DNA from: Moraxellaceae bacterium
Lineage (GTDB): Bacteria; Pseudomonadota; Gammaproteobacteria; Burkholderiales; Rhodocyclaceae
Length of the DNA stretch: 38,771 bases
NCBI GenBank assembly: GCA_031119205.1
Contig: JAVHYF010000038.1
Location: 1 to 38,771, forward strand
Direction of reading: 5' to 3'
Position numbers and translations under genes: made by a program. Below the pieces are notes generated by a model, which did no database searches, was not told the origin of the DNA, and worked only from the letters and a program-made list of their open reading frames with translations. Shown here piece by piece: positions 14,158-27,897 of this stretch; the stretch's first letter is position 1, and every line of letters starts with the position of its first letter.

Positions 14158-14231
14158 CTGGGGAGGAAGGACTCGAACCCTCGAATGCCGGAATCAAAAT
14201 CCGGAGCCTTGGCCAACTTGGCGACTCCCCA
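14158..14231 (-). tRNA. tRNA-Gln (anticodon TTG)
   Basis: A 74-base cloverleaf on the minus strand. The acceptor TGGGGAG pairs with CTCCCCA. The anticodon stem CCGGA/TCCGG encloses the loop TTTTGAT, whose anticodon is TTG, reading CAA and probably CAG by wobble. The T arm contains GGTTCGAGTCC. The discriminator base is G and the 3' CCA is encoded (14155-14157). It lies between ispE and prs, a position often seen in related genomes. Confidence 0.96.
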
Positions 14232-23490: not shown

Positions 23491-23590
23491 GGCGTTTCCC
23501 CAAGCGCTCCTGGCTAGGCGTGCCGACGCAGACAGTACAAGTAGTACGGCAAGGAGGCGCAACAACGCCAGGAGCGCTTGGGGAAACGCC
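23491..23590. repeat. Structured intergenic element, copy 1 (long inverted repeat around a conserved core)
   Basis: A 100-base element with perfect 24-base inverted arms (23491-23514 and 23567-23590). Inside is a core that recurs at 27058-27123. The 66-base cores (23508-23573 here) differ at 10 positions, 8 of them in paired sites. The inner stem here is GTGCCG (23520-23525) with AGGCGC (23555-23560). The right arm ends 2 bases before the stop codon of the minus-strand PLD gene, so on that strand the element begins the 3' untranslated region. It may serve as a terminator or processing signal, or be a dispersed repeat. Confidence 0.75.
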
Positions 23591-23592
23591 GC

Positions 23593-25095
23593 TCAGAGCA
23601 GGTACTCCCACATACGGGAAAAGGTCTCCTTCACCCGCGGCATCACGCCGCGGTCTTTCCAGTCTTCGAGCGTGATGCGCTTGGCGCCGTCGAGGTCACG
23701 TTCGAACTGCGCGCGCATCGCGCTGCCGAACTCCTCGCCCATAACGACTGCATTCACCTCGTTGTTGTGCAGGAAGCTGCGCCAGTCGAGGTTGGTGGAG
23801 CCGACGGTGGACCACACGCCGTCGACCACGGCGGTCTTGGCGTGCAGCAACGCGTCGTGCCTCTCGTAGATCTCGACACCTGCTTCCAGCAGGGCGCTGT
23901 AGTGGGCGCGGCCTGCGTGCAGGATCAGGCCTGAATCGCTGAAGCCGGGCAGGATCATGCGTACCTTCACGCCGCGCTGCGCGGCGGTCTTCAGCGCAGC
24001 CATGGTGCGGTCGTCGGGCGCGAAGTAGGCCATGGTGATCAGCACGCTTTCCATCGAGGCGTCGATGGCGGCGATGTAGGCCTTGTAGATCGCCGCTACT
24101 TCCTCCTCACTCGGCCCGCTGGCAATCACCTGCACCACCTTGTCGCCGGTGGGCTTCGCCACCGCCTCCGACAGGGGCGGATCGCCTGCGCACTTCTGCT
24201 GGCGCCAGGTTTCGCCGAACAGGTTGTTGAAGACGGCAGCGGCGGGGCCACGTACCGACACCTGCGTGTCGCGCCAGCCATCATCCTTGGTCGGCTCCGC
24301 ATCACGATTGCGGTTGCGGCGCCCGATGGAGGACGAGCCGGAACTGTACACGCCGCTGATGTTAATGCCGCCGGTGAAAGCCGTCGTGCCATCGACGACG
24401 AGGATCTTGCGGTGGTCGCGATGGTTGATCTTGAAGAGGTGCAAGGGCCGCGCCGGATGCACCGGGTTGAATTCGCAGACGGCGACACCGCCGTTACGCA
24501 GGCGCTGGAAGAACTCGTCCGAGGTCGTCAGCGAGCCGATGCCGTCGTAGATGATGTTCACCCGCACGCCCTCCTGCCGCTTGCGCAGCAGCAGGTCGGC
24601 AAGGCGACGCGAGATGTCCGCGTCCTCGATGATGTAGCTCTCCAGTGCGATGCTGCGACGCGCCCTCTCCACAGCCGCGAACATCGCCTTGTAGGTAGCC
24701 GGGCCGTCGATCAGCAGGTCCACCGTGTTGCCGGCGATCAACGGGCTGGAGCTATCCGCCATCGCCTGCAGCTGACGTTCCAGCAGACGTGGCCGGCCTT
24801 CCACCTTCAGCTGGCTTACCACCCGCTGGGCCTGTCCGCTGGAGGCCTGGCGGTCGGCCACCAGCACCGGTGGATGTACGGGCGCACCTGCGGCAGGCGG
24901 CGTGGCTTGCAGTGGCACGTCCGGCAGGGTCTGGCAGGCCGCGCCGGACAGACTGAGGGCGGACAGCAGCACACTGCGCAACAGCCACGCCAGTCGTGGC
25001 CCCAGCGGCGCGGTACGGGGCTGTAGTGCCTGCATCTGCAGCGGCACAGCGTCCCGCGGGGCGCGCGGGACGTTTGTCGAAATACCTTGCTCCAT
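23593..25095 (-). CDS. Phospholipase D/cardiolipin synthase-like protein, probable lipoprotein
   Basis: A 500-residue protein with two HKD motifs: H228-K230-D235 (HRKILVVD) with GGINIS, and H418-K420-D425 (HAKTAVVD) with GSTNLD. This makes it a phosphatidyltransferase or phospholipase of the cardiolipin synthase family. The N-terminus has a positively charged stretch, a hydrophobic segment (about 35-53) and GAAC with C54. It looks exported and may be lipidated, although the residue at -3 is atypical for a lipobox. Its localisation would then differ from the cytoplasmic-face ClsB at 6465-7628. The start at 25095 has a GGAGGAG ribosome site. It is divergent from csbD and ends at repeat element 1. 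Its activity is not proven by sequence. Confidence 0.85.
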   Translation of the reverse strand: MEQGISTNVPRAPRDAVPLQMQALQPRTAPLGPRLAWLLRSVLLSALSLSGAACQTLPDVPLQATPPAAGAPVHPPVLVADRQASSGQAQRVVSQLKVEGRPRLLERQLQAMADSSSPLIAGNTVDLLIDGPATYKAMFAAVERARRSIALESYIIEDADISRRLADLLLRKRQEGVRVNIIYDGIGSLTTSDEFFQRLRNGGVAVCEFNPVHPARPLHLFKINHRDHRKILVVDGTTAFTGGINISGVYSSGSSSIGRRNRNRDAEPTKDDGWRDTQVSVRGPAAAVFNNLFGETWRQQKCAGDPPLSEAVAKPTGDKVVQVIASGPSEEEVAAIYKAYIAAIDASMESVLITMAYFAPDDRTMAALKTAAQRGVKVRMILPGFSDSGLILHAGRAHYSALLEAGVEIYERHDALLHAKTAVVDGVWSTVGSTNLDWRSFLHNNEVNAVVMGEEFGSAMRAQFERDLDGAKRITLEDWKDRGVMPRVKETFSRMWEYLL

Positions 25096-25384
25096 GTCTC
25101 CTCCGGCCGGTCTTCAGCACAGCCATGGCGCAACTGTGGCGGGCAAGCCGGGGACGGAGAATCGGCGCGAACCTATTCGCCTATCGGTCGCGTCCTACGT
25201 GATGGCAGCGTCAGGCTGCAAGGCAGGCAACGCGTGCCGTACGAATGCATTGGGACAAACCTGATCGGACAAATCCCACAGGCCAATCAGCCTGCACCGG
25301 GACCGTGCGCCCCGACGCTTCCCTAAAGTGAGGCCATGCGCTGCCACCACGGCACGCATTCCACAAATCGACAAGGAGAGCGTC

Positions 25385-25588
25385 ATGAACCGCGACATCA
25401 TCGAAGGCAACTGGAAGCAACTCGTCGGCAAGGCAAAGCAGCAATGGGGCAAGCTCACCGACGATGACCTCGACGTCATCCAGGGTCGCCGCCAGGAACT
25501 GGCCGGCAAGATCCAGGAGCGCTACGGCGTGAGCCGCGACGAGGCCGAGAAGCGCGTCAAGGAATGGGAAGACAGCATCCGCCACTAA
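25385..25588 (+). CDS. CsbD family stress protein
   Basis: A 67-residue hydrophilic, highly charged helical protein. It opens MNRDIIEGNWKQLVGKAKQ, and KIQERYGVSRDEAEKRV lies in its second half, both hallmarks of CsbD-like proteins. Members are often stress-induced in bacteria; their molecular role is unclear. The ATG at 25385 follows AAGGAGAG; an in-frame ATG 57 bases earlier lacks a ribosome site. The gene is divergent from the PLD gene across a 289-base gap that should hold both promoters. Confidence 0.9.
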   Translation: MNRDIIEGNWKQLVGKAKQQWGKLTDDDLDVIQGRRQELAGKIQERYGVSRDEAEKRVKEWEDSIRH

Positions 25589-25605
25589 GCGGACCGCTGC
25601 ATCCC

Positions 25606-25628
25606 TGACGCCGGCAGCCCCGGCGTCA
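25606..25628. terminator. Hairpin between convergent csbD and MEKHLA genes
   Basis: The stem TGACGCCGG / CCGGCGTCA has 9 pairs and a CAGCC loop. It fills the 47-base gap between two convergent genes. No T run follows on either strand, so intrinsic termination is doubtful. Confidence 0.4.
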
Positions 25629-25635
25629 ACCGCGC

Positions 25636-26094
25636 TCAGGCCGGGCGCGTCCGCAGGTAGGTAGCCGCCTGCCCGTGGACGCGCCCGGCCTCGTCCACCA
25701 GGTTCCACACCGTCACGTCCTCGATCCAGAAACGGCGACCGTCCTTCGCGATGCGCAGGCCGCGGTAGCCGGTCGCGAAACCATCACGCGCCACCGCCGC
25801 CAGCAGGACGTCGCGCTCGGCGCGATCCGGCGCCTCTGCCGACAGACGCGAAGGCATGCCGACGAACTCGCCCCACGCGTAACCGAAGCAGCGTTGCGCG
25901 GACATGTTGGCGTAAATGAAGCAGGGACTCGCCTGGGTGTCGTGCGCCAGCAGGCAGTACGGCGCTTCTTCATAGAGCCAGCGCGCCGCCTCCGCCAGCG
26001 CCAGCGATTCGTCCACCAGCCCCCGCCCGAGCAGGCGTCGATACGACGAAAGCATCAGCGCAACATCAACTTTCCACGGCGCGTTCATCGACAC
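25636..26094 (-). CDS. MEKHLA domain (PAS-like) protein
   Basis: A small stand-alone cytoplasmic protein of 152 residues with the PAS-related MEKHLA domain. Typical stretches are VALMLSSYRRLLGR near 11-24, FIYANMSAQRCFGYAW near 59-74, FVGMPSRLSAE near 77-87, GYRGLRIAKDGRRFWIED near 109-126 and WNLVDEAGRVHGQAA near 130-144. No output domain is attached, so it may bind a ligand or partner as a sensor module. The GTG at 26094 directly follows the EamA stop, with AGAAGG at good spacing; an ATG at 26088 is an alternative. It is probably co-transcribed with the transporter. Function is unknown. Confidence 0.8.
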   Translation of the reverse strand: MSMNAPWKVDVALMLSSYRRLLGRGLVDESLALAEAARWLYEEAPYCLLAHDTQASPCFIYANMSAQRCFGYAWGEFVGMPSRLSAEAPDRAERDVLLAAVARDGFATGYRGLRIAKDGRRFWIEDVTVWNLVDEAGRVHGQAATYLRTRPA

Positions 26095-27006
26095 TCAGGC
26101 CTTCTCCGCGCTCTTCGGAATGCGGCTCACGCCGTAGATCACCAGCGCGGCGCCCACGACCTGCAACACACCCAGCGACTCGCCGAGGATCAACCAGCCG
26201 AGCAGGATGGTGATGACCGGACCCAGCGTACCGACCATGGAGGCCGGACCGGCGCCGAGACGGCGGATCGCCTCCGAGGTCAGCCAGATCGGCAGCACGG
26301 TGGAGAACACCGCCATCGCCAGCGACAGCGCATGCACCTGCCAGGGCTGCTCCAGCACCGACATCACCGGCCGCACGATGGCGAACTGCGTCAGGCTCAG
26401 CAGGCAGGCGAAGCCAGTAGCCCAGGCCGCCACGCGGGTGCTGCCCAGCCTGCCCACCTCCTCGCCTGACAGGATGATGTACAGCGCGTACGACAGCGCA
26501 CTGCCCAGCACCAGCAGGGTGCCCATCATGACCTCGTCGCCATGCGGCTGGCGCAGGTCGTGCGCGAAGGCGAGGATCGCACCGGCATAACAGATCGCCA
26601 GCGCCACCAGTGCCGGCCGCGTCAGCGGCTTGCGCAGGAAGATCGCCGACAACACGACCACGAGGGTCGGGTAGATGAACAGCGTGATGCGCTCCAGCGC
26701 CGCGGTGATGTACTGCAGCCCGAGGAAATCGAGATAGCTCGCCAGGTAATAGCCCAGCACACCGAGCAGGAACAGCATGCCGATGTCGCGTCGGCTCAGC
26801 GTAATCGGATTCTTCAGCGCCACCGCCACGCCCATGCCGATGAAGAAGGGCAGCGCGTAGCCCATGCGCAGCGCGAGCAGCGTTTCCGCGTCCACGCCGT
26901 AGGCGTAGGCCAGCTTGATGAAGATCGCCTTCATGGCGAAGCCCAGCGCGCCGAGCACCGCGCAGGTCATGCCGATGGAGGCATTACGGCCACTATGCGC
27001 AACCAT
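26095..27006 (-). CDS. EamA/DMT-family transporter
   Basis: A 303-residue inner-membrane protein with ten predicted helices, arranged as two EamA repeats of the drug/metabolite transporter superfamily. LGALGFAMKAIFIKLAY lies in the first helix, and PASMVGTLGPVITILLGWL with GESLGVLQVVGAALVIYGV lies in the C-terminal repeat. The substrate cannot be read from sequence. On the minus strand it follows the TauE/SafE-like gene, separated by repeat element 2, and is adjacent to the MEKHLA gene downstream. Confidence 0.88.
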   Translation of the reverse strand: MVAHSGRNASIGMTCAVLGALGFAMKAIFIKLAYAYGVDAETLLALRMGYALPFFIGMGVAVALKNPITLSRRDIGMLFLLGVLGYYLASYLDFLGLQYITAALERITLFIYPTLVVVLSAIFLRKPLTRPALVALAICYAGAILAFAHDLRQPHGDEVMMGTLLVLGSALSYALYIILSGEEVGRLGSTRVAAWATGFACLLSLTQFAIVRPVMSVLEQPWQVHALSLAMAVFSTVLPIWLTSEAIRRLGAGPASMVGTLGPVITILLGWLILGESLGVLQVVGAALVIYGVSRIPKSAEKA

Positions 27007-27019
27007 GACCCGGCACCAG

Positions 27020-27141
27020 GAAGGCGTAACGAAATGAAGCGGAGCGGAGCGACGCGGTTCTGGCTAGGCGCATCGACGCAGACAGTAAAACTAGTACGGC
27101 AAGGCGATGCAACAACGCCAGAATCATTTCGTTGCGCCTTC
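27020..27141. repeat. Structured intergenic element, copy 2
   Basis: This is the second copy of the element at 23491-23590. Outer arms 27020-27037 and 27124-27141 are complementary over 18 bases with one T-G pair. Inner arms TTCTGGC (27058-27064) and GCCAGAA (27117-27123) enclose the conserved core, with inner stem GCATCG (27070-27075) / CGATGC (27105-27110). A 20-base GC-rich stretch (27038-27057) is unpaired on the left side only. The right arm abuts the stop codon of the minus-strand TauE/SafE gene, the same relation to a stop codon as copy 1. The outer arm sequences are unrelated to those of copy 1. Confidence 0.75.
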
Positions 27142-27897
27142 TCACTTGAACGCGTCCCACAACAGCTTGAGACCGGACAAGCCCAGCCCCGTGGTGGCAA
27201 TGAAGAAGAACGGCCGCTCCGGCACCAGGCGCTGCACGCGCACGCCCAGCCACACACCGAGCGGCGCCAGCGGCGCGAGGATGGCAGCGGTCAGCAGCAC
27301 GTCCGGCGTGAACAAGCCCAGCGCCGCATAGGGAAGCAGCTTGGCGAGGTTGATGAAGCCGAAAAACACCACCGTGGTGGCCACGAAAGTCTGCTTGGGC
27401 AGTTTGCGGCCCAGCAGGTACACCAGCACCGGCGGCCCACCGGCATGCGCCAGCGTGCTGGTCACGCCGGACACGGCGCCCCATATGCCACCGGCAACAC
27501 GGCCGGGCGTGTGATCCATCTTCAGCCTGGCGCGCAGACCGAACAGGCGGTCCAGCACGAAGACGATGGCAATCGTGCCGATGACGCCCTTCAGCGCGCG
27601 ATCGGACAGCAGGCCGAAGGCCAGCGTGCCCAGCACGATGCCGCACAGCGCACCGGGCACCGTGGCCCACAGGTCCTCCTTCGACCACTTGCCCCAGTAG
27701 GCGCGGATGCCGGAGGCATCCATCAGGCACAGGATGGGCAGCATCAGCGCCGCCGCCGTGCTGGCCGGCATGAACAACGCCAGCAAGGGCACCGCCACGC
27801 CACCGAGCGCGCTGCCGAATCCGCCCTTGGAAATACCGGTGAGCAATACCGCGAGGATCGCAATGGCCCAGGCTGCCGGGCCGAAGGTTTCGAACAT
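27142..27897 (-). CDS. TauE/SafE (TSUP) family membrane permease
   Basis: A 251-residue inner-membrane protein with about eight helices. The first repeat contains AVLLTGISKGGFGSALGGVAVPLLAL, and the second contains GAVSGVTSTLAHAGGPPVLVYLLG, the two characteristic TSUP glycine-rich motifs. Family members move sulfite, sulfoacetate or other anions; the substrate here is unknown. It is followed on the same strand by repeat element 2 and then the EamA transporter. The 166-base gap to the divergent YciI gene should hold its promoter. Confidence 0.9.
   Translation of the reverse strand: MFETFGPAAWAIAILAVLLTGISKGGFGSALGGVAVPLLALFMPASTAAALMLPILCLMDASGIRAYWGKWSKEDLWATVPGALCGIVLGTLAFGLLSDRALKGVIGTIAIVFVLDRLFGLRARLKMDHTPGRVAGGIWGAVSGVTSTLAHAGGPPVLVYLLGRKLPKQTFVATTVVFFGFINLAKLLPYAALGLFTPDVLLTAAILAPLAPLGVWLGVRVQRLVPERPFFFIATTGLGLSGLKLLWDAFK

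Follow-up and report, generated by a model that had tools for sequence, protein, structure and literature searches.

Two copies of a structured intergenic element lie in the window analysed here, the whole 38,771-nucleotide (nt) contig JAVHYF010000038.1 (assembly GCA_031119205.1), which is contig C12 of the 4.63 Mb host genome G000, a member of the Rhodocyclaceae in the order Burkholderiales. Each is found next to the stop codon of a minus-strand gene, one for a PLD-like protein and one of the TauE/SafE family, and each consists of a folded core between complementary arms. Comparison with other copies leads us to regard both, at a probability of roughly 0.78, as copies of a miniature inverted-repeat transposable element (MITE) whose core is homologous to that of Correia elements in Neisseria, and which appears from its sequence and distribution to have been repeatedly domesticated as an mRNA hairpin of putative function. 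The features of the locus are listed below, with bit scores from R1, a covariance model built from 26 G000 copies alone.

23491–23507, plus strand: left arm of copy 1, 17 nt, 17/17 paired with 23574–23590
23508–23573, plus strand: Correia-type core of copy 1, with outer stem, inner stem, GTAC tip and conserved loops (95.7 bits for 23505–23576)
23574–23590, plus strand: right arm of copy 1, pairing with the left arm at 23491–23507
23593–25095, minus strand: gene for a PLD-like protein, 500 amino acids (aa), its TGA at 23593–23595, 2 nt from copy 1
27020–27037, plus strand: left arm of copy 2, GAAGGCGTAACGAAATGA, pairing with the right arm through one T.G pair and otherwise Watson-Crick pairs
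27038–27057, plus strand: unpaired insert of 20 nt on the left side of copy 2, between left arm and core
27058–27123, plus strand: Correia-type core of copy 2 (90.5 bits for 27055–27126)
27124–27141, plus strand: right arm of copy 2, its reverse complement matching GAAGCCGTAACAAAATGG at 14/18 positions
27142–27897, minus strand: gene of the TauE/SafE family, 251 aa, its TGA at 27142–27144 abutting the right arm of copy 2

The original prediction, made from these two copies, described their anatomy largely correctly. The 66-nt cores differ at 10 positions, eight of which are in or facing stems as judged by eye, and three pairs (one in the outer and two in the inner stem) are altered on both sides; a repeat search returns the two copies at 85% identity across 68 nt. 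The arms are complementary as described: those of copy 1 (17 nt) continue into the 7-bp core stem to give 24 fully paired bp, and those of copy 2 pair over 18 nt, the unpaired insert beside them having been overlooked. Left-side inserts of 10–24 nt between arm and core are present in 18 of the 26 G000 copies. Fold z-scores against 200 shuffles are −8.6 (plus strand) and −9.1 (minus strand) for copy 1, and −6.6 and −5.5 for copy 2. The distance of 0–2 bases to a minus-strand stop codon was also read correctly. The PLD-like protein has only distant homologues among the genome contigs, at no more than 53% identity.

Both copies belong to a multicopy family. A blastn search of G000 with core 1 gave 31 matches, 26 of them at E ≤ 5.1e-7. 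The alignment comprises 26 full copies and excludes five matches, namely three short ones, a partial one and an interrupted one; R1 returns 29 matches at E ≤ 0.01. The 26 aligned cores measure 65–68 nt, compared with 98 nt for one R1 match in another genome (G086:C7); these lengths bear on the long form with an IHF site that Correia elements have. Their common structure of 18 pairs has 97.4% of its cells paired, against 91.3% in shuffles, and 11 of the pairs carry changes on both sides, against 2.6 in shuffles, with 0/500 shuffles as good; such statistics are inflated among G000 paralogues by the relatedness of the copies. When the pairing register is slid, pairing drops to 24–46%. Left and right flanks form duplexes of −47.4 kcal/mol on average with their own partner and −34.9 kcal/mol with flanks of other copies. 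The own flank is the best partner in 13 of 26 rows, and the other 13 are unsurprising because many copies have similar arms.

Selection on form is the simplest cause of stem pairing maintained through double changes. The prediction of a dispersed structured family kept in its folded form, which few or no further copies or a lack of covariation would have contradicted, stands, on 26 full copies and on covariation both among the paralogues and among the groEL orthologues discussed below; covariance-model searches of host and relatives likewise gave many copies. Rfam contains no family matching the element at gathering score, the best being a weak match to MIR6234 at 19.7 bits, where the gathering score is 90, and the only Rfam match in the window is a tRNA gene (14158–14231, minus strand). 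In one further G000 locus (L033, contig C35), the core is broken by a short A-rich insertion.

The arms are most readily understood in the sister genome G003, of the same genus as G000, and in Cupriavidus, where they are common to several copies. G003 copies typically read TWA, GAAGCYGTAACAAAATGG, AGTGCAACGG, core, CCATTTTGTTACGGCTTC, TWA, with the element boundaries just inside the two TWA triplets. At a fixed boundary, the outside 3-mers are identical (TTA/TAA) in 9/16 G003 copies (18 places fetched; L265 and L266 omitted here and from the arm comparison) and in 4/10 Cupriavidus copies (14 hits; L137, L139, L141 and L144 omitted, their left side being rearranged or diverged). With boundaries read by hand, and with L263 also omitted, 10 of 15 G003 copies match, against 5.0 expected (permutation p 0.00035). 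In G000, the right arms form a graded series with 18, 17, 16, 15, 14, 13, 12, 11, 10, 9, 8, 6, 5 and 4 of 18 positions identical to GAAGCCGTAACAAAATGG, in which window copy 2 stands at 14/18 and window copy 1 at 5/18. Together with the empty site described next, the repeats and duplications of the relatives indicate that the arms belong to the element. The prediction called them unrelated between copies, and for these two they are indeed dissimilar; across the 26 copies, such arms appear as the far end of a gradation along which both arms change together.

An empty site can be read in Cupriavidus, at an acyl-CoA dehydrogenase gene: in C. campinensis and Cupriavidus sp. EM10, only a few bases separate the stop codon from the start of the gene that follows, and the hairpin is absent. 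Near-identity searches for Cupriavidus empty sites gave only two records, both of the same species, and a distant search gave one usable locus of two. Short length, multiple copies and inverted repeats, as expected of a MITE, are found in the family, and target duplication and an empty site, the latter imperfect, in the relatives. These TWA duplications and the empty site bear out the earlier suggestion that the element is mobile. The accompanying idea of a hairpin that duplicates its flank is not supported: the arms are the element's own terminal inverted repeats, the target duplication in relatives is 3 bp, and the readable empty site lacks any arm sequence. Inverted duplication of the flank is likewise ruled against by arms common to different copies in G003 and Cupriavidus.

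Some individual copies depart from the usual plan. On the C. metallidurans megaplasmid, L127 lies within a direct repeat, AACAGGATTTTT, that is longer than the 3-bp duplication. Two loci, L281 (G003:C1:87469-87541) and L279, have internal deletions and are short forms with their ends kept. An adjacent inverted pair of core matches is located between parA-like and parB genes in another genome (L076, G017:C1:3132031-3132209).

The family extends well beyond the host genus. R1-positive genomes number 7/8 in the genus (E ≤ 0.01), at least 30/121 in the family and at least 14/274 in the class (E ≤ 1e-4 with stricter filters, and so lower bounds), every sample including G000; within the genus, there are between 0 and 29 copies per genome. 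A blastn search of a plasmid collection with copy 1 and its arms gave 10 records, from Paraburkholderia (3), Cupriavidus (2), Eleftheria (2), Neisseria gonorrhoeae (2) and Undibacterium (1), the gonococcal match having 86.7% identity over query bases 40–82. R1 finds 14 places on the C. metallidurans CH34 megaplasmid and 43 in N. gonorrhoeae NZ_CP119140 (E ≤ 0.001, best 6.9e-7). All 12 gonococcal loci inspected have Correia ends, TATAGTGGATTAAC or close variants. Because a model built from G000 copies alone finds these places, and the 12 inspected are Correia elements (CREE/NEMIS), the core is identified as the Correia core. The record NZ_CP119140.1 is labelled a plasmid, and at 2.17 Mb is presumably a chromosome.

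With the Correia element, the family shares a homologous core and the character of a small, non-coding, multi-copy element with inverted repeats around a directional core. The ends differ, being GAAGCYGTAACAAAATGG-like in the present family and TATAGTGGATTAAC... in the gonococcus; the 26-bp Correia repeat ends are not found here, and by eye only a stretch of TAACAAAA is common to both. The target rule differs as well: G003 and Cupriavidus show 3-bp TAA/TTA duplications (matching 3-mers are present in 1/26 G000 copies), whereas PMC2649163 gives insertion at TA, sometimes CA. The family described here is, moreover, often found at stop codons. Since ends and target duplication both disagree, the element is not filed as a Correia element, and the possibility left by the original prediction, that it matches a described repeat family, holds for the core and not for the ends. 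Most likely, the element is a MITE that resides outside Neisseria and combines a Correia core with distinct ends and a distinct target rule. Correia elements have been called unique to Neisseria (PMC5039591) and their mobilising mechanism undetermined (PMC2649163); our literature search surfaced no paper placing a Correia core outside this genus.

A search of a phage collection with the copy 2 core was negative. In viral contigs, 10 loci fit an exact pattern of the core, and six of these (L368, L370, L371, L373, L374 and L376) have Neisseria Correia ends by eye. The viral contigs of L367, L369, L372 and L375 carry the same core with still other ends, for example TATAGTCGGAGAAGTGAAAAAGTA in L367. 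Palindromic elements of roughly 150–170 bp with a related core are present, at about 1501–1571 of the loci, in L087, L089, L098 and L099 (G280, G391) and in L088 and L100 (G382). Their ends are unrelated (CTAGTGTCCT... and CTAGGGGGCGTTCTCAATCAC...), with more than 95% identity inside each group.

Other short repeats of proteobacteria resemble the element less closely. BRE sequences, described from Bordetella, Polaromonas and others, are short (75–91 bp in Bordetella), GC-rich and mostly intergenic, and their Burkholderiales host range is one where the present family also occurs; compared by description, they differ in forming tandem arrays (PMC3110155). GTAG/CGTC REP sequences are also small palindromic repeats of proteobacteria, of 20–40 bp with unpaired GTAG or CGTC heads (PMC3733652). 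The element described here is, by contrast, about 100–125 bp long, with internal loops and inverted repeats. An integron attC site and an IS200/IS605-like element were also considered as identities. Insertion sequences of the IS1031 type, in the IS5 family, produce a 3-bp T-N-A target duplication, as seen here. They differ in that no such transposase with these ends was found: the IS5-type domain PF01609 has no match in G000 or G019 and 10 matches in G003, the ends of which lay outside the check.

Several copies are shared at the same place between genera. At ettA, a copy is located 10 nt upstream of the start codon in G000, and in the same place in the genus mate G001 and in G019, from another genus; here the plus strand of the element is the sense strand. 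Directly after the groEL stop codon, copies are present in G000, G001, G004, G005, G010 and, in a different family, G232. These six were the groEL loci with E ≤ 9e-8 among 72 (the next best had E 0.36), a sample comprising 70 of 100 genomes with a match plus L061 and L092, added as already known hits; G005 and G010, within the 70, were also known beforehand, and four of the six carriers (G004, G005, G010 and G232) were known earlier from R1 hits. On the 3′ side of their genes, exaC copies are common to G086 and G349, from two families, and ilvC copies to G104 and G082. Among groEL copies, 20 cells are kept paired by both-side changes, 4 by one-side changes and 6 are broken, and among exaC copies the counts are 7, 2 and 0; for all four orthologue sets, the structure prediction used these very alignments, a procedure biased towards pairing. 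A comparison of flanks between G000 copies and a limited set of relatives found only the ettA site in common, the groEL site having been found separately. That different genera carry copies at matching positions, behind groEL and ahead of ettA, suggests that the hairpin is useful to its host. Two other genomes have a different hairpin, with a tip like ACGTACTTTTCGTACGT, directly 3′ of groEL where others have the Correia-type element (L340 in G006, L351 in G002).

The association with stop codons is one-sided. Counting stops of open reading frames of at least 90 aa at the element boundary, a stop is found on the right rather than the left in 19 vs 1 of 26 copies in G000, 9 vs 3 of 16 in G003 and 4 vs 1 of 10 in Cupriavidus. 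Contact with stops would follow from the fit of TAA and TGA to a T-N-A target, and we infer that one half of the target duplication survives as the stop, preserved by coding constraint while the other half decays. The asymmetry is most marked in the older G000 set, which points to selective retention of copies with a single orientation.

The element is probably not the termination signal that had also been proposed. Simple scans detected no terminator-like site at the window copies, and the sequence of an intrinsic terminator, a hairpin followed by a U tract, is not found there. At all six groEL elements (6/6), a distinct terminator-like hairpin comes 153–187 nt further on, and by eye a separate terminator also lies downstream of the element at purU. 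Among groEL loci without the element (2/72 loci not being parsable), a terminator-like hairpin occurs within 350 nt in 57/64, at a median of 68 nt. Where it can be read in this way, the element is an extra hairpin of the presumed transcript rather than its terminator.

A difference between the strands is harder to accommodate. On the plus strand, G.T outnumbers A.C by 21 to 5 in the arms of G000, counted as cells and not as events, and by 17 to 4 in those of G003, mostly through one inherited pair. Taken as a whole, the element folds more stably on the plus strand in 20/26 G000 copies (p 0.0004). This stability bias is absent from the G000 core alone (11/26), from G003 (7/16) and from Cupriavidus (5/10), and G003 cores alone are more stable on the minus strand (plus in 4/16, p 0.015). 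The strand bias has no ready explanation under a plain mRNA role and is the main loose end.

These observations can be joined in the following scheme. Both window features would be old copies of a MITE of about 100–125 bp, with GAAGCCGTAACAAAATGG-related inverted repeats, in many copies a short unpaired insert on the left, and a folded core of about 66 nt homologous to the Neisseria Correia core. A transposase acting in trans, for which no candidate was found, would insert the element at T-N-A; because two stops, TAA and TGA, fit this target, insertion at a stop would leave the gene intact, and the hairpin would become the start of its 3′ untranslated region (UTR). Once transposition was over, many copies may have been retained in one orientation through a role in the transcript. 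The likeliest role would be protection or processing of the mRNA 3′ end, by analogy with Correia elements, whose transcript hairpin is reported to be bound or cut by RNase III (PMC2649163).

Several observations weigh against this scheme. Matching outside 3-mers in just 1/26 G000 copies leave the case for mobility to the relatives, where the empty site is imperfect, C. metallidurans having some 60 nt extra beyond the element, and where the second Cupriavidus locus, L135, gives no clear alignment over the junction. Searches of 8 genus genomes, some of them fragmented, turned up no transposase bearing these ends. In window copy 1, purU and ettA, where the arms have diverged furthest, 5, 5 and 4 of 18 positions match, which is chance level; their descent from the canonical repeat is inferred. 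At ettA, no cell is kept by both-side changes, 3 are kept by one-side changes and 2 are broken, so that the stem is kept without double change; the counts at ilvC are 1, 5 and 0, and all these pairings profit from structures predicted from the sequences themselves. Finally, the G.T bias favours the strand antisense to the abutting gene, a misfit with a simple role in sense mRNA.

Arms that are locus-specific and near-perfect in several copies, at the 3′ ends of genes, could also be the stems of older terminator hairpins into whose loop the core was inserted. This is hardly credible in view of the separate terminators downstream of the element and the arms common to copies in G003 and Cupriavidus, and it is refuted for the Cupriavidus acyl-CoA dehydrogenase site, which has no hairpin when empty. 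Inspection by eye reveals no matching arms in relatives that lack the element at apaH, parB, purU and tauE (13/30, 18/30, 14/30 and 6/12 of the fetched loci compared, respectively, G000 included), a weak result given that 3′ flanks are unconserved. At the purU position, G006 has a decayed copy with a different arm. Insertion into terminator loops is ruled against by the empty site and the separate terminators. An RNA family inherited vertically as a cis-regulatory or 3′ UTR element, without transposition, would account for the covariation and for sites at groEL, ettA, exaC and ilvC common to several genera, and it may fit the old copies. As a full account it is very unlikely, since 3-bp target duplications and an empty site argue against it, as do copy numbers ranging from none to 29 within one genus and a flank comparison in which only ettA, and separately groEL, proved common.

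Two further explanations concern the arms and strands rather than the origin of the family. Quasi-palindrome correction, an established mutational process, rewrites one arm from its partner by template switching during replication; it would make the covariation mutational and explain how arms diverge widely yet stay paired. We consider it rather unlikely as the cause of the complementarity. The loop bases, which are outside its protection, are conserved from G000 to Neisseria, and the plus-strand biases of G000 in G.T content and stability would be unexpected under correction; G003 and Cupriavidus lack the stability bias. The G000 biases, together with the largely inherited G.T excess of G003, could instead indicate that the element acts as single-stranded DNA or antisense RNA of the plus strand, in the manner of hairpin-recognising elements. 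This is unlikely: the stability bias is missing from the G000 core, G003 and Cupriavidus, G003 cores favour the minus strand, the plus strand is sense at ettA, and 3-bp duplications would suggest a transposase that cuts double strands. A domesticated Correia-core MITE remains our preferred explanation.

A broader view may be entertained tentatively, though we give it somewhat less than even chances. The core could be an ancient folded module, distributed from the Burkholderiales, the order of the window, to Neisseria, that forms the centre of several mobile families with differing ends and duplications, with repeated domestication as a UTR hairpin in the housekeeping genes groEL, ettA, ilvC and exaC. 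Its loops, and not its ends, would then be the functional heart, presumably read by one widespread host factor, and the Correia element would be its Neisseria branch. Relatives of the Correia element with readable duplications and an empty site, such as those of C. metallidurans, offer a place to seek both the transposase and a partner that binds the core. Targeting of stop codons would allow a mobile element to insert harmlessly and to join the mRNA.

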